NCBI GenBank assembly: GCA_029547025.1
Contig: JAKPQA010000148.1
Location: 1 to 57,727 of the forward strand
Reading direction: 5' to 3'
DNA from: Armatimonadota bacterium
GTDB lineage: Bacteria; Armatimonadota; Zipacnadia; UBA1398; JAKPQA01
DNA: 57,727 nucleotides
Under the pieces are notes generated by a model. That model had not been told where the DNA came from, ran no database searches, and saw only the letters and a program-made list of their open reading frames with translations. Of this stretch, positions 39,971 to 47,041 are shown in pieces. The first letter of the stretch is position 1. Each line of letters begins with the position of its first letter. The position numbers and the translations under genes were made by a program.

Positions 39971-40158
39971 ATCCCACCGCCTCCAGCGTCCAACCTAGAT
40001 GAGTGGCCATTCCGCCGGGCGAACGCGCCTCCCTGCCCGTCGCCCACCCAGAACGTGAACACTGCATTACCGGCCTGGCAACTCCGGACGGAAATGGGGT
40101 AGTATCCCGTGGGCGTTTGCGGACTGCGTCAGGCCGCCGCAGGGAAGGAGGGATTGGT

Positions 40159-40785
40159 CTGGGGGCCGATCGTCAGGGCCGAGAGCCGGAGCCAGCCCGT
40201 GACCTGGACGTGGACCCGGCGCGCCAGGAGCGGATCGCGCGCGAGCTTCGCGAGCTCGCGGACAAGAACTACCGCGCGATCTACCATCTGATCCATTCAT
40301 ATATCGGCGGCGACCCGGACGAAGCCGAGGACCTGACTCTTCAGACGTTTGAAAACGCATTCGCCTCTTATCACCGGTTCCGAGGCGAGGCAGATGTCCG
40401 AACTTGGGTCTTTCGCATCGCCATCAACGTGTGCAAGAACCGGATCCGGCAGAAGCAGACCCGGCGTCGGTTCGAGGCCCTCTCGCTCGACGCCACCTTC
40501 GGCGGCGACTCGGAGGACGACACCTCGGCCATGGACGTGCCCGACGTCTCTCAGAGCCCCACCCGCATAGCGGAGGGCCGCGAGCTCCGCGAGATCCTGC
40601 GGGCGGGCATCCGCAAGCTCCCCGCCGACTACCGCGAGGTGCTTCTCCTCAAACTGCAGGACTTCTCATACAAGGAGATCGCGGACATGCTAGACTGCAC
40701 AGTCGAGACGGTTAAGTCGCGGCTCTTCCGTTCGAGAGTGGCCCTGAAACAGCTGGTGGGCGGGTACGTGGACGAGGCGGACTGA
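40159..40785 (+). CDS. ECF-type RNA polymerase sigma factor
   Basis: This small sigma-70 protein has region 2 (DEAEDLTLQTFENAF, then WVFRIAINVCKNRIRQ) and region 4 (LPADYREVLLLK, then YKEIADMLDCTVETVKSRL), and lacks regions 1 and 3. The start is unusual. No ATG or upstream GTG precedes region 2, but a perfect AAGGAGG (40145-40151) sits 7 bases before an in-frame CTG at 40159, giving 208 residues. GTG 40210 is the fallback and has no ribosome-binding site. No anti-sigma gene is adjacent. Directly downstream is an ECF-type promoter and the Omp85 cluster, so it likely controls outer-membrane biogenesis genes. Confidence 0.9.
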   Translation: MGADRQGREPEPARDLDVDPARQERIARELRELADKNYRAIYHLIHSYIGGDPDEAEDLTLQTFENAFASYHRFRGEADVRTWVFRIAINVCKNRIRQKQTRRRFEALSLDATFGGDSEDDTSAMDVPDVSQSPTRIAEGRELREILRAGIRKLPADYREVLLLKLQDFSYKEIADMLDCTVETVKSRLFRSRVALKQLVGGYVDEAD

Positions 40786-40872
40786 CCGCCCGACCCCGAT
40801 TCCCCTGGCGAGTGTGGCCGCCCGCGGGTGCTGCTGCCATGCCCCCTGTGGCTTCGCCCCTGGAGTCTGCAA

Positions 40873-40897
40873 GGAACATTCTGCGGTCCGGGACGTC
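40873..40897 (+). promoter_or_regulatory. ECF-type promoter before the first Omp85 gene
   Basis: GGAAC (40873-40877) and CGTC (40894-40897) are separated by exactly 16 bases, the classic arrangement for ECF sigma factors. It lies 40 bases before the first Omp85 gene and just after the ECF sigma gene. Confidence 0.6.
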
Positions 40898-40936
40898 CTA
40901 GTCTCGGGTCACGATCAGGCACGAAGGGACTCATCG

Positions 40937-42742
40937 ATGCGAGTGGGCGCTGAGCGCGGGACTGCCGAGCCGCAGCCTGGCGCGCTCACGTTGCGGTGGT
41001 TGATGCTCTCTGCACTGCTGGCGGCGGTCCTCACGAGCGTGGCCGACGCGCAGAAGCGCCCGATTGTACGGGAGATCCGCATCGACATCGGGCCACACGG
41101 CCAGATCTCGGAGGAGGTCGTCCGCAGTGAGCTCACGGCCGTGTCCGTCGGCATGGAGTACGACCAGGCCAAGACGGCCGCGGCACTCCGAGCCGTTCTC
41201 GACACGGGCTACTTCCAGCGTGACCCGAAGCTCTCGTATGTAGAGGCCGTTCCCCAGGGCGACGATGTCGCCCTCGTGTTCCGGCTGCGCGAGAACCCGA
41301 TCATCGAATCGGTCACCGTCGAGGGGAACACGGTGCTGGATGACGCCACGATCACCGCGCTGCTCAGAGAGGTGCTGCAGCCCGGTCGGGTGCTCAACAG
41401 CCGCATGGTGGATGAGTGGATCCAGGAGGCTGTATCGCAAGCGTACCGTGACCGAGGTTACGCGGCCGTCGTGCTCAGTCCTACCCTCAGTGAGCAGGGC
41501 GTGTTGACCATCGCCGTGGTCGAGCAGTACATCGAGGATATTCGGCTCGCCGGCCTGCGGAAGACGGCGGAGAAGGTGGTGCGCCGGGAGATTGAGGCCC
41601 GGCCCGGACAGCTCGTGAACACGCACCGCATCCAGGAGGACCTGGATCGCCTGCTGGCACTGGGGATCTTCGAGGACGTGTCGGTGGGCGAGTGGATTCC
41701 CGGCCAGCAGGCGGGGGCGGTGATTCCGGTATATACATTCACCGAGCGTGAGACGGGCTCATTCACCGCCGGCGGCAGCTTCGACACCCGGCGGGGCTTG
41801 CTCGGCTATCTCGAGTACGCCGAGGCCAACCTGGGCGGCCATGCCCGGCGCCTCAAGATTGCGGGCGAGTTCGGCACCTTCCTTAATCTCGACGCGACCT
41901 ATGTCGAACCCCACATCGGCACCAGGACGTCGCTGGAAGCCCACGCCTTCGCCAACCAGTTCCAGACGGGCAAGCTCTCCATCGGCGGCCTCGTATCCAA
42001 CTTCTCGGCCGAGTCTCGAACCGGCGCCGAGGTGGCCGTGACCCGAGCACTGGACAGTGACCGGCACCGGATTGTTAGCCTCGGGTACCGTAACGAGTAC
42101 CGGCAGAACTTCGACCCCCGCCTCACGAATGTGTTGTCGGCCGATGCGCTGCGAGGTCGGGTTGGGACTGTGAGGGTCCGGCTAGGCAACGACACCAGGG
42201 ACCAGTTGGACAATCCGCGTCGCGGGAGCCTTCAAGTGGGCACACTCGAATACGCGGCGCCGTGGCTGGGGAGCCAGTCGACCTTCGCGAAAGCCGAAGT
42301 CGACGCACGCCAGTACCTGTCGATGGGCAGCCGCGGGGTGTTTGCCCTCCGCGCGAACGCCGGCACGACGTTCGGCACGTTGCCACCCATTTTCGAGAGC
42401 TTTCGCCTGGGAGGAACCGACTCGCTCCGAGGCTATGCCGAGGATCGCTGGTGGGGGACCAACCAGGTGCTGCTCAGCGCCGAATACCGTCACCAGATCA
42501 TCGGCCATAACCCAAACCGGGGCGTCCAGCTGGTGCTCTTCGCCGATTACGGCAGCGCCTGGGGAGGCTCGTGGAGCGGGAGCGACGGCTCGTCGCTCGC
42601 CGCGGAGGACCAGCGCTTCGTGGGGCACTTTGGTTACGGCGTCGGACTTCGGGTCAACACGCGGCTGTTCCCGTTGCGCATCGACTATGGTATACGTTCG
42701 GGTGGCGGACGGTTCCATGCGGGCATCCAGCACACGTTCTAG
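40937..42742 (+). CDS. Omp85/BamA-type outer-membrane protein 1
   Basis: The 601-residue protein has AAGGGA about 9 bases upstream and a signal peptide (about 20-44). Three POTRA domains follow (about 48-285), recognisable by ESVTVEGNTVLDDATI and EDIRLAGLRKTAEKVVRREI. The C-terminal 16-strand barrel contains the loop-6 motif LRGYAED and ends in F (HTF), the beta-signal. POTRA-barrel proteins insert or export outer-membrane proteins. BamA of model bacteria has five POTRAs, so this could be a BamA, TamA or lineage-specific paralogue. It is the first of three tandem copies and sits behind an ECF-type promoter. Confidence 0.9.
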   Translation: MRVGAERGTAEPQPGALTLRWLMLSALLAAVLTSVADAQKRPIVREIRIDIGPHGQISEEVVRSELTAVSVGMEYDQAKTAAALRAVLDTGYFQRDPKLSYVEAVPQGDDVALVFRLRENPIIESVTVEGNTVLDDATITALLREVLQPGRVLNSRMVDEWIQEAVSQAYRDRGYAAVVLSPTLSEQGVLTIAVVEQYIEDIRLAGLRKTAEKVVRREIEARPGQLVNTHRIQEDLDRLLALGIFEDVSVGEWIPGQQAGAVIPVYTFTERETGSFTAGGSFDTRRGLLGYLEYAEANLGGHARRLKIAGEFGTFLNLDATYVEPHIGTRTSLEAHAFANQFQTGKLSIGGLVSNFSAESRTGAEVAVTRALDSDRHRIVSLGYRNEYRQNFDPRLTNVLSADALRGRVGTVRVRLGNDTRDQLDNPRRGSLQVGTLEYAAPWLGSQSTFAKAEVDARQYLSMGSRGVFALRANAGTTFGTLPPIFESFRLGGTDSLRGYAEDRWWGTNQVLLSAEYRHQIIGHNPNRGVQLVLFADYGSAWGGSWSGSDGSSLAAEDQRFVGHFGYGVGLRVNTRLFPLRIDYGIRSGGGRFHAGIQHTF

Positions 42743-42822
42743 AGGTCCGGCGAGCCGTCGGCCACAGGGGGCGGGGCGCGCAGTGGGCCGGGCTGGGGCC
42801 TCTGTGGAATTCGGATCGGTTA

Positions 42823-42851
42823 TTGACTTTTGCACACTCTTTGGCTAGAGT
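42823..42851 (+). promoter_or_regulatory. Sigma-70 promoter of the second Omp85 gene
   Basis: TTGACT (42823-42828) and TAGAGT (42846-42851) are separated by the ideal 17 bases in an AT-rich patch. Transcription would start near 42858, about 64 bases before the gene. Confidence 0.7.
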
Positions 42852-42921
42852 GCCGCCGTAGCGTGCGGCGGCTGGTGTTCCCTGGCGCCCAGCAGGAGCT
42901 GACGCACGAAGGAGCTGGACA

Positions 42922-44721
42922 ATGGCAGAGCACAGTGCTGACCCGGGCACGGAGAGAGGCCTGCCGCGCTTTCGTCTCTGTGCCGGGCTGCTATGCCTGG
43001 CCACGGTGATGTGCTCGGGTGCGCACGCCCAGTACAAGCCGGTGATTCGCGCGATTTTGTTCGACATCAAACCCTACCAACAGGTTACCCGTCAGGCGCT
43101 TGAGAACGTGATCCGGGTCAAGGTGGGCGACGAGTATGACCAGGCGCGGGCGGAGGCGGCGAGGATTGCGATCCTCGATACCGGCTGGTTCCAGCGCGAT
43201 CCCGAGCTCTCATACGTCGAGACCGAGCCCATGGGCAACGACGTCGCTCTCGTGTTCCATCTGACGGAGAATCCGATCATCAAGTCGATCAACTTCGAGG
43301 GAAACACGGTGGTGGACTCCGAGGTCCTGCGGAAGCAGTTGGCCACGGTGATCGAGCCCGACAAGGTCCTGAACCTCAAGATCCTCGATCAACAGGTACC
43401 CGCCGAGATTCGTCAGGTCTATACCAATATGGGGTACTCGGCACTCATGCTGCATCCGACCGTGAGCCCCGAGGGCGTTCTGACCATCCCCCTCGTCGAG
43501 CAGTATGTCGAGGATGTGCGCATCCAGGGGCTGAAGAAGACCAAAGAGAAGGTAGTACGCCGAGAGATCCACACGCGGCCCGGCCAGCTCCTCAACGCTA
43601 AGACCATCCAGGACGACCTGAACCGGCTCTACAATCTGGACGTCTTTGACACTCCACCCGAGATCGTGGACTGGCTGCCCGGCCAGGAGCTCGGCGGCGT
43701 GATCCCCGTGTTCCAGTTCACCGAGCGCAAGACCGGCTACTTCACGGTTGGCGTGGGTTTCAGTACGGCCGAAGGGTTCCTCGGCTATGCCGAGGCGGCG
43801 GAGACCAACCTCCGCGGGCGCGGCCAGAAGGTCAGTCTCCGCGCCGAGTTCGGGAACTACATCAACTTCAGTTTCCGCTACCTGGAGCCATACCTGGATA
43901 GCCACCATACTTCGTTGGAAGTCAACCTGTTCCGGAACTCCCTGCGTTCGGGCAGCTCGATCCTGGGTGGCAGCCTCCACATGTCGGCTGAGTCGAGCAC
44001 GGGCGTCATCGTCAGCCTCAACCGGCCCCTCGACGATGACTACAAGCGTCGCGTGGAGCTGGCCTACAGCAACGTGACCACCCAGAACTACGATCCCCGC
44101 CTGATCAACGTCGTCTCTCCCTTCCTCCTGCGTGGCCAGGTCGGCAGCCTGAGGGTGGGCCTGACGAACGACACACGTGACATCTATGAGAACCCTCGCC
44201 GTGGCGGTCTGCACACCGCATCGCTGGAGTACGCGGACCGGTGGCTGGGCGGCGCTTCGCGCTTCTCGAAGTTCGAAGTGGATCTGCGCCAGTACTTCTC
44301 TTCGGGTGACAAGGGCGTCTTCGCGCTGCGCGGCAACTACGGCAGCGCGCTCGGCAGCGAGCCGCCCGTCTACGAGGCGTTCCGCGTCGGTGGGGCTGAT
44401 ACGGTCCGGGGCTATCTGGAGGATCGCTGGTACGGTATGAACCGGCTGCTGGTCAGCGCCGAGTACCGCTACCAGATCTCCGGGCATAGTGCCCGCAGCG
44501 GCATTCAGCTCGTCCTGTTCGCGGATTATGGCGATGCCTATGGTGGGCGTTGGGCATCGCAGGATGGTTCGATCTTGTTCGCCGAGCACCAGACCTTCCA
44601 GGGCTCCCTGGGCTACGGGCTCGGCGTTCGGGTCAACACGCCTCTCGGGCCGATCCGCCTGGATTACGGCATCGGCTCCGAGGGCGGTCGAACGCACTTC
44701 GGGATAAGCCAGACCTTCTAG
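42922..44721 (+). CDS. Omp85/BamA-type outer-membrane protein 2
   Basis: The 599-residue paralogue of protein 1 has the same layout: signal peptide (about 15-36), three POTRA domains (EGNTVVDSEVLRKQL and VRIQGLKKTKEKVVRREI) and a barrel with VRGYLEDRWYG in loop 6, ending in SQTF. AAGGAG lies 7 bases before the ATG. It has its own sigma-70 promoter and so may be expressed constitutively while copy 1 follows the ECF sigma factor. It is the shortest of the three and a candidate for the housekeeping BamA. Confidence 0.92.
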   Translation: MAEHSADPGTERGLPRFRLCAGLLCLATVMCSGAHAQYKPVIRAILFDIKPYQQVTRQALENVIRVKVGDEYDQARAEAARIAILDTGWFQRDPELSYVETEPMGNDVALVFHLTENPIIKSINFEGNTVVDSEVLRKQLATVIEPDKVLNLKILDQQVPAEIRQVYTNMGYSALMLHPTVSPEGVLTIPLVEQYVEDVRIQGLKKTKEKVVRREIHTRPGQLLNAKTIQDDLNRLYNLDVFDTPPEIVDWLPGQELGGVIPVFQFTERKTGYFTVGVGFSTAEGFLGYAEAAETNLRGRGQKVSLRAEFGNYINFSFRYLEPYLDSHHTSLEVNLFRNSLRSGSSILGGSLHMSAESSTGVIVSLNRPLDDDYKRRVELAYSNVTTQNYDPRLINVVSPFLLRGQVGSLRVGLTNDTRDIYENPRRGGLHTASLEYADRWLGGASRFSKFEVDLRQYFSSGDKGVFALRGNYGSALGSEPPVYEAFRVGGADTVRGYLEDRWYGMNRLLVSAEYRYQISGHSARSGIQLVLFADYGDAYGGRWASQDGSILFAEHQTFQGSLGYGLGVRVNTPLGPIRLDYGIGSEGGRTHFGISQTF

Positions 44722-44791
44722 GACGTGCGGCGAGGGGGCCGTGAGTCCGGCCCGAAGCGATCTCGCCGCCAGGGGAGTCAGGACCCGCCCG

Positions 44792-44820
44792 GGGGTCTAC
44801 GGCCGTCTGGCCCAGACCCC
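44792..44820 (+). terminator. Hairpin after Omp85 protein 2
   Basis: GGGGTCT (44792-44798) pairs with AGACCCC (44814-44820) around a 15-base loop. It is the first of three hairpins in the 199-base gap before the third Omp85 gene, and a likely terminator or attenuator. Confidence 0.45.
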
Positions 44821-44828
44821 TACCCCGG

Positions 44829-44867
44829 CTGCCAGGCCTCGGGGCCCCAACACGGGGCCCGGGGCAG
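44829..44867 (+). other. Strong two-part hairpin in Omp85 2-3 gap
   Basis: An outer CTGCC/GGCAG stem (44829-44833 with 44863-44867) encloses an inner GGGCCCC/GGGGCCC stem (44842-44848 with 44854-44860). It may regulate or terminate transcription into the third Omp85 gene. Confidence 0.4.
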
Positions 44868-44868
44868 T

Positions 44869-44893
44869 CGAGTCTCACGCCTGGCGAGACTCG
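44869..44893 (+). other. 8-bp hairpin just upstream of Omp85 protein 3
   Basis: CGAGTCTC (44869-44876) and GAGACTCG (44886-44893) form an 8-bp stem with a 9-base loop, ending 27 bases before the start codon. It could hide or expose the nearby GGGGAGG site, or be an operator. Confidence 0.4.
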
Positions 44894-44920
44894 GCAGTTT
44901 GAAGGGGAGGCGGGGCCCAC

Positions 44921-47041
44921 ATGGGACTGCCTGCATCAGCCGGGAGCCGATCGGTACGGGCTCTCTTCGTCACCGTGTCACTTGTCGGCCTCTTTGCCGG
45001 GGCCATGATGCTGTCCGCGGATCGTTGCGAGGCGGTTCCGGGTATCAAGGCGCCGCCGAGGACGCCAGGGGATGCGACCCGACCCACTCCGCCACCCGAC
45101 ACACCAGCTCCGGAGCCGGTCCCGCCGGCCGTACCCGGCGAGGTTGGCGAGGCCCTTCCGCCGCCCGCTGTTCCCCCCGAGCCCGTCCCTGATGGGGAAG
45201 AAGGCCTGGCCAATGAGCCACCGGCCGCCCCGCCGCCTGGCGAGACACCAGGGCTTCCGCCAGGGCAACCGGCCGGGGCCGTGATGAGCCCTCCGGGCCA
45301 GTCGGTGCCCTCGCCCATGGCCAAGCCCACGCTCGAGGACGACAGCCTGATCGAGGGGCCGCTGGTGGCTGAGATCGTGTTCGAGGGCCTGCGCGGTGTG
45401 AGCGAGGAGGAGGCCCGGCAGACGATCGCTCTCGAGATCGGCCGCAAGTTCACGCCGGCCCGCGGGGACGCGGACCTGCGCCGCCTGCTGGCTCTGGGAG
45501 CGTTCCGGACTCGCGCCGAGGAGTCGTATGTTCACACCGAGCCCGTGGGGGACCAAGTGCGAGTGATCTTCCACCTCACGGAGAACCCGGCGGTACGGGG
45601 CATAGTCTTCGAAGGCAATACCGTGCTGTCGGCCGAGGCCCTGACCGCCGCGGTTCAGGGCGTGGTCCGGCCTGGCGACGTCTACCGCACCGACATTGGC
45701 GGCAAGGTGGCGGAGCAGGCTTCGGGCGCCTATCTGGATGCCGGGTACGCGGCCCTTGTGCTGCATCCCACGCTGGACGACGCGGGCGTCCTGCACGTGC
45801 CGCTTATCGAGCAGTACATCGAGGACGTCGAGATCGAGGGACTCCGGAAGACCAAACGCAAGCTGGTGATGTCCGAGATCCGGACACGTCCCGGGCAGCT
45901 CTACAACCTGGGACTGATCCGGCGCGACCTGGACCGGCTGATCGACCTGGGGCTGTTCGACTCGGTCGCCGTCGCCGACCCGCGTCCCGGCACACAGACC
46001 GGGGCGGTGATCCTGGTCTACCAACTGGATGAGCGCAAGACGGGGACATTCGACGCCGGTCTCGGCTACGGCCCCAAGGACGGACTCATCGGCTATGTGG
46101 CCGTCTCCGAGAACAACCTGGGGGGACATGGCCGGAAGCTGGGCGTGCGAGCCGAGTTCGGCGGGACCTATGCCTTTGACCTACACTTCTCGGACCCGTT
46201 CCTGGACAGCCATCACACATCCATCGAGCTCGACGTGTATTCACGGCGGACCCGGACGGACCTGGTGGGGTTCGCAGGTCTGAGCTCGCCCAACCAGGTG
46301 TTTGGGTCGGAGACTCACACGGGAGGGGTGGTGTCGCTGTCGCGGCCTCTGGACCGAGACCGCAAGCGCCTGGTGAACGTGTCCTATATGAACGAGTATG
46401 TGAACAACCAGGACGCGCGGTTGATCAACATCCTGGATCCGTCGGCCCTTAGGGGGCGGGTGGGCAAGCTCTCGGCTGGGTTCATCAATGACTCGCGCGA
46501 TATGCCGTCCAACCCCGCTCGGGGTGGTCGTGAGGCCATCCAGATCGAGCAGGCCGCCGGCGTCCTGGGTAGTTCATTTACCTTCACCAAATTTGGCGTT
46601 GACCTCCGTCGGTACTTCGAGATTGGCGACCGCAGCGTCATAGCGCTCCGAGGCATGTACGGGCTGGTCCGTGGGCAGAACACGCCCATCTTCGAGGCCT
46701 TCAGGGCCGGAGGCATGGACACGATCCGGGGCTACCGCGAGGACCGGTTCGTCGGCTCGAATGTGGTGCTCCTGAATGCCGAGTACCGCTACCGCCTGTT
46801 CGGCGATGATCCTCGCAAGAGCCTGCAGGCGCTGGCCTTCGTCGACTACGGCGATGCCTACGGCGGAACGTGGCCCGGCCTCGGGAACGCGGTGTTCTAC
46901 TCCGAGCATCAGCAGTTCACCGGGAACCTCGGTGTCGGTGTTGGTCTGCGCTGGAACACGCGCCTCGGGCCCATCGGGGTGGACTACGGCGTGGGGCGCG
47001 AGGGCGGCCGGGGCTATCTGACATTCCGGCAGACGTTCTAG
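44921..47041 (+). CDS. Omp85/BamA-type outer-membrane protein 3 with Pro-rich N-terminal spacer
   Basis: The 706-residue third paralogue is about 100 residues longer than its neighbours. After the signal (about 10-40) comes a roughly 90-residue Pro/Ala-rich, presumably disordered segment (about 45-135), then three POTRA domains (EGNTVLSAEALTAAV and VEIEGLRKTKRKLVMSEI). The barrel has IRGYREDRF in loop 6 and ends in RQTF. GGGGAGG lies upstream of the ATG. The spacer may reach through peptidoglycan or bind a periplasmic partner; no other sequence evidence for function is visible. Confidence 0.9.
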   Translation: MGLPASAGSRSVRALFVTVSLVGLFAGAMMLSADRCEAVPGIKAPPRTPGDATRPTPPPDTPAPEPVPPAVPGEVGEALPPPAVPPEPVPDGEEGLANEPPAAPPPGETPGLPPGQPAGAVMSPPGQSVPSPMAKPTLEDDSLIEGPLVAEIVFEGLRGVSEEEARQTIALEIGRKFTPARGDADLRRLLALGAFRTRAEESYVHTEPVGDQVRVIFHLTENPAVRGIVFEGNTVLSAEALTAAVQGVVRPGDVYRTDIGGKVAEQASGAYLDAGYAALVLHPTLDDAGVLHVPLIEQYIEDVEIEGLRKTKRKLVMSEIRTRPGQLYNLGLIRRDLDRLIDLGLFDSVAVADPRPGTQTGAVILVYQLDERKTGTFDAGLGYGPKDGLIGYVAVSENNLGGHGRKLGVRAEFGGTYAFDLHFSDPFLDSHHTSIELDVYSRRTRTDLVGFAGLSSPNQVFGSETHTGGVVSLSRPLDRDRKRLVNVSYMNEYVNNQDARLINILDPSALRGRVGKLSAGFINDSRDMPSNPARGGREAIQIEQAAGVLGSSFTFTKFGVDLRRYFEIGDRSVIALRGMYGLVRGQNTPIFEAFRAGGMDTIRGYREDRFVGSNVVLLNAEYRYRLFGDDPRKSLQALAFVDYGDAYGGTWPGLGNAVFYSEHQQFTGNLGVGVGLRWNTRLGPIGVDYGVGREGGRGYLTFRQTF

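Follow-up and report, generated by a model that had tools for sequence, protein, structure and literature searches.

A predicted ECF-type promoter between a BamA-linked sigma gene and a duplicated bamA-like gene in an Armatimonadota bacterium, and its possible reading by a distant sigma-E-like factor

The window analysed here, a 57,727-nt stretch of DNA from an Armatimonadota bacterium, carries a gene for an ECF sigma factor followed on the same strand by three tandem Omp85 genes, with a GGAAC-N16-CGTC motif between the sigma gene and the first of them. Each of these elements had been pointed out in an earlier sequence-only reading of this DNA and was confirmed by Pfam and motif searches. The features of the locus are as follows.

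40076..40105, + strand: possible housekeeping promoter of ecfO, TGGCAA-N18-TAGTAT (seen by eye; weak)
40145..40152, + strand: ribosome-binding site AAGGAGGG before a CTG start
40159..40785, + strand: ecfO, ECF sigma factor EcfO (Pfam; orthologue of the BamA-linked sigma factor of Armatimonadota)
40873..40900, + strand: predicted ECF-type promoter GGAAC-N16-CGTCCTA, EcfE type (motif search, class scoring)
40937..42742, + strand: omp1, Omp85/BamA-like, ATG at 40937 (Pfam Omp85 115 bits, POTRA 83 bits; tree)
42823..42851, + strand: sigma-70-like promoter TTGACT-N17-TAGAGT before omp2 (sigma-70 consensus scan)
42922..44721, + strand: omp2, Omp85/BamA-like (Pfam, tree)
44921..47041, + strand: omp3, Omp85/BamA-like, with a proline-rich N-terminal extension (Pfam, tree)

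EcfO is a protein of 208 aa that matches Sigma70_r2 (E=1.5e-12) and Sigma70_r4_2 (E=3.3e-16) and consists of sigma2 and sigma4 domains without sigma3, the architecture of ECF (group IV) factors. Alignment revealed the acidic motif DEAEDLT in region 2.2, which corresponds to the DAED-like contact with core RNA polymerase that ECF43 proteins do not have (PMC8999054). Against the RpoE equivalog model TIGR02939 it scored 93.1 bits, the cut-off being 236. The CTG at 40159, six bases 3' of AAGGAGGG, is the likely start of ecfO, and no better in-frame start was seen. Among the nearest genes on either side, which include one for an NPCBM-domain protein, Pfam recognized no anti-sigma gene adjoining ecfO.

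The proteins encoded by omp1, omp2 and omp3 all combine an Omp85 barrel (115-143 bits) with POTRA domains (81-86 bits) as expected for BamA, score 189-220 bits against the BamA equivalog TIGR03303 (cut-off 297), and are about as long as the Omp85 proteins of relatives. The proline-rich N-terminal stretch of omp3 is unusual. No Omp85 genes were found in the 6.3 Mb assembly outside the tandem (40937-47041), and most relatives have a single one. In the tree, omp1 and omp2 are sisters (support 100/99), the longer of the two branches being that of omp1; judged by this topology, omp1 is a recent duplicate of omp2. The sigma-70-like promoter before omp2 is weak by itself, because the scan found one such element where 0.7 were expected by chance. 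The single bamA of the nearest relative (L010) is preceded by a similar TTGACC-N18-TAGAGT, and the two elements together suggest that bamA moved to a housekeeping promoter in the window's order.

The pairing of sigma gene and bamA extends far beyond the window. Of 40 genomes taken from more than 20 further families of the phylum Armatimonadota, 39 had an EcfO orthologue directly 5' of bamA on the same strand; the contig of the 40th ends 576 nt past the sigma gene. Within the class, every locus with sufficient flank had an Omp85 gene following the best sigma match, and the same order was seen in other Armatimonadota genomes, one of them from Fimbriimonadaceae. Among the closest ECF homologues outside Armatimonadota, none had an Omp85 match in the flank retrieved. 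The neighbours of ecfO often include tamB upstream and ompH/skp downstream, and an LpxD-like gene follows in several loci. A protein of ~400 aa with no Pfam match is encoded between ompH/skp and lpxD at L128:5374-6594 and L120:5791-6957. The window sigma falls inside the BamA-linked clade (support 100/99) and shares a long branch (0.9) with that of G001, one of the three genomes of the order that were compared. In the assembly of another, G002, no Omp85 gene and no close match to the window sigma were found.

In relatives, the BamA-linked sigma gene has a conserved predicted promoter of its own. G[GC]AAC-N15/17-TGTC[TA]A was found upstream of it in 25 of the 30 class loci, a set that includes the window's own locus, against 0.03 expected from shuffles, and the class consensus is G[GC]AAC-N16-TGTCTAA. 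Across the 40 phylum loci, an unbiased two-block search returned AAAC-N16-TGTC as the top pair, and the strict EcfO-type pattern occurred in nine (0.34 expected). Genome-wide, the class motif was about as frequent as the reversed control and was rejected as the sign of a large regulon; these counts indicate that it marks about one site per genome, as in a local self-regulated operon. Five loci of one family (L018, L022, L027, L031 and L033) carry an ECF-type promoter and a TGTGGTATAAT sigma-70-type -10 element in tandem upstream of the BamA-linked sigma gene. In the window genome, neither G[GC]AAC-N16-TGTCTAA nor any other ECF-type site was found upstream of ecfO. The place where relatives have the ECF-type promoter is occupied by TGGCAA-N18-TAGTAT, which the sigma-70 consensus scan did not report.

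The motif in the window stands instead behind the sigma gene, inside the 152-nt gap between ecfO and omp1, as GGAACATTCTGCGGTCCGGGACGTC at 40873-40897 on the + strand or, at full length, GGAACATTCTGCGGTCCGGGACGTCCTA at 40873-40900. Transcription from it is predicted to start at ~40907. In its loose form the motif is common: with spacings of 15-18 it matched the window five times (3.2 expected), and GGAAC-N16/17-CGTC matched the genome 214 times against 166 for the reversed control pattern, so that it was rejected as a genome-wide regulon marker. Such numbers would fit a chance match, with omp1 co-transcribed with the sigma gene, as is apparently the case in the compact clusters of relatives, where the gap between sigma gene and bamA is very short (e.g. 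L021) or the two genes abut (L037). The fuller form GGAAC-N16-CGTCnTA, which was fixed with the window site already known and is supported by EcfE sites elsewhere, speaks against this: it arose in 0 of 20000 shuffles of the gap and occurs only five times in the whole window genome, elsewhere before genes for exported or transport proteins. Even the loose motif arose in 0 of 2000 gap shuffles, and the site stands at a normal promoter distance from the omp1 start codon. We consider a chance match improbable, and the earlier proposal that an ECF-type promoter precedes a BamA-like gene is supported. The motif is not kept between sigma gene and bamA in relatives; its sole other match there (L024) falls inside bamA. 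When the window was scored with the class EcfO matrix, the omp1 site did not stand out.

The fuller motif led to a second ECF sigma factor, EcfE, encoded far from the window, which is contig C65 of genome G000.

G000 contig C30, L335:796-3126: cluster of ECF sigma factor (EcfE), zf-HC2 anti-sigma factor and MucB/RseB-domain protein (Pfam)

GGAAC-N16-CGTCnTA stands directly 5' of ecfE in all three genomes of the order. Downstream of EcfE come a zf-HC2 protein (E=1.1e-9) and then a MucB_RseB protein (E=1.2e-9). The former, with a transmembrane stretch judged by eye, is encoded directly 3' of ecfE in all three genomes; the MucB/RseB domain PF03888 scored 38.5 bits in G000 and 30.7 bits in G001 (cut-off 22.3), and the G002 contig ends before this position. 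No RseA domain match was found in the anti-sigma factor of EcfE, which carries zf-HC2 instead. The three genomes contain 5, 2 and 5 copies of the fuller motif, and nine of these 12 sites stand just before ecfE (three), tatA (one each in G001 and G002), omp1, genes for a multihaem cytochrome and an exported 147-aa protein (both G000), and a gene for an exported Cu-amine-oxidase-N protein (G002). A tenth lies in the last part of the gene that precedes tatC in G002, ~130 nt from tatC itself, and the remaining two are inside genes. The sites before tatA and tatC (loci L325, L326 and L330) suggest stress control of Tat export in the order. Enrichment before envelope genes, the absence of which would have counted against the sequence-only proposal, appeared with the CGTCnTA form and speaks for a real regulon.

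EcfE-type factors and their sites also recur throughout the class, where [TG]GAAC-N16-CGTC was found upstream of 25 of 30 EcfE-type ECF genes, the sites resembling TGAACCTT-N13-CGTCTA, and an HxxxCxxC protein is encoded downstream of 29 of the 30. In 20 genomes the strict EcfE pattern gave 11 matches, nine of them upstream of EcfE by position, and the reversed control gave none. The EcfE and EcfO groups are apart in the tree (90/79 and 100/99), and their promoter classes separate cleanly in leave-one-out scoring, part of this separation being by construction because the patterns used to collect the sites differ at the C or T before GTC. The log-odds of the window site favoured the EcfE type by +10 bits with class-only models and by +16 bits with the order's sites included. 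With the class-only models, the order's own three EcfE sites scored -2 to -6, their -35 element having changed from TGAAC to GGAAC, so the log-odds of the window site are supportive, not decisive. The bamA clusters of relatives examined contained no convincing EcfE-type site (three loose pattern matches, one inside bamA); control of bamA by EcfE is therefore seen in one genome only. Based on these data, we lean towards the view that omp1 is driven from a genuine ECF promoter at 40873-40900, which is mainly read by the distant EcfE.

The adjacent EcfO might itself recognize GGAAC-N16-CGTC and drive omp1, its specificity having shifted from TGTCTAA to CGTC in this order. The position of ecfO next to the site, its phylum-wide linkage to bamA and the conserved promoter upstream of it in the class all speak for EcfO, and the factor is fast-evolving in the order, so that on its long branch the window EcfO may have changed specificity to CGTC. 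In addition, the G001 ecfO orthologue has GGAAC-N17-CGTC upstream of itself, and L267, from another family, has GAAACTTTTTTTATCGGTTTTTGTCCTA upstream of its EcfO, sharing GTCCTA with the window site. However, in all three genomes of the order it is a different ECF factor that has the full motif as its conserved upstream site, the window's ecfO has no such site upstream of itself, and the G001 site differs in spacing and is without the TA, which leaves direct recognition by EcfO rather unlikely in our estimation. In several bacteria, ECF factors that share GGAAC -35 elements overlap with one another, and on this precedent EcfO and EcfE could both read the omp1 site and integrate two signals; the two -10 elements are kept distinct in the class, though, and we regard such joint use as very improbable.

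These findings divide the earlier proposal of a compact local envelope-stress circuit without an adjacent anti-sigma factor. Its second part held for the neighbourhood of ecfO. A closed circuit is not the best reading: the site fits the ECF factor of contig C30, which has a zf-HC2 anti-sigma factor and a MucB/RseB-domain neighbour, and the promoter of EcfO in relatives is of the TGTCTAA type and placed upstream of the sigma gene, not between it and bamA.

With EcfE as the sigma factor that we infer to act mainly at the omp1 site, the following order of events can be proposed. EcfE would be held by its membrane zf-HC2 anti-sigma factor together with the MucB/RseB-domain sensor; misfolding of envelope proteins would cause the anti-sigma factor to release it, and freed EcfE would transcribe omp1 and further envelope genes along with its own operon. 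EcfO would be a long-standing regulator linked to bamA across Armatimonadota, which in relatives presumably autoregulates an operon that includes bamA. In the window's order, EcfO would have diverged, its upstream promoter would have been lost or decayed, housekeeping promoters now probably drive ecfO and may also drive omp2, and the omp1 duplicate would have come under the sigma-E-like stress regulon. A broader scenario is possible and is offered tentatively, with more doubt than confidence: a phylum-wide, dedicated EcfO encoded between tamB and bamA would autoregulate the outer-membrane assembly operon without a neighbouring anti-sigma factor, perhaps sensing assembly through a product of the operon, and in one order an RpoE-RseA-RseB-like system that acts on a bamA duplicate would have taken this wiring over.

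To our knowledge, the sensing and adjustment of outer-membrane assembly in diderms outside Proteobacteria have received few tests. The constant position of a sigma gene next to bamA in almost every Armatimonadota genome sampled, together with a conserved class promoter, offers a direct handle on assembly sensing, and the window genome provides a natural rewiring for comparison. If EcfE controls omp1, sigma-E-type control of bamA would exist far from Proteobacteria, as either a convergent or an old trait.

Among known systems, ECF factors without a neighbouring anti-sigma factor belong to groups linked to two-component systems, kinases or regulatory extensions (PMC8999054), and the window EcfO likewise has no anti-sigma gene beside it. 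A literature search that included PMC5007114, PMC8999054 and PMC10290634 found no BamA/TamB-linked ECF group. Many phyla of diderm bacteria have a TamB-BamA-Skp gene cluster (Antunes et al. 2016, PMC5007114, and Heinz et al. 2015 as cited in that paper), and the Armatimonadota relatives resemble it in the adjacency of tamB, bamA and ompH/skp, with lpxD in several loci, but differ in the ECF sigma gene between tamB and bamA; PMC5007114 mentions no sigma factor. The closest parallel to the EcfE system is RpoE-RseA-RseB of E. coli, and PMC8081527 describes sigma E as upregulating the BAM machinery. The two differ in that the anti-sigma factor of EcfE is of the zf-HC2 and not the RseA family, the window sigma is far below the RpoE equivalog cut-off, and here the site precedes just an additional bamA copy, in a single genome. 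In both, an ECF factor, a downstream membrane anti-sigma factor and a MucB/RseB-domain protein are encoded in one cluster, and an ECF promoter precedes a BamA-type gene; the analogy to sigma E regulation of bamA drawn in the sequence-only reading is supported.
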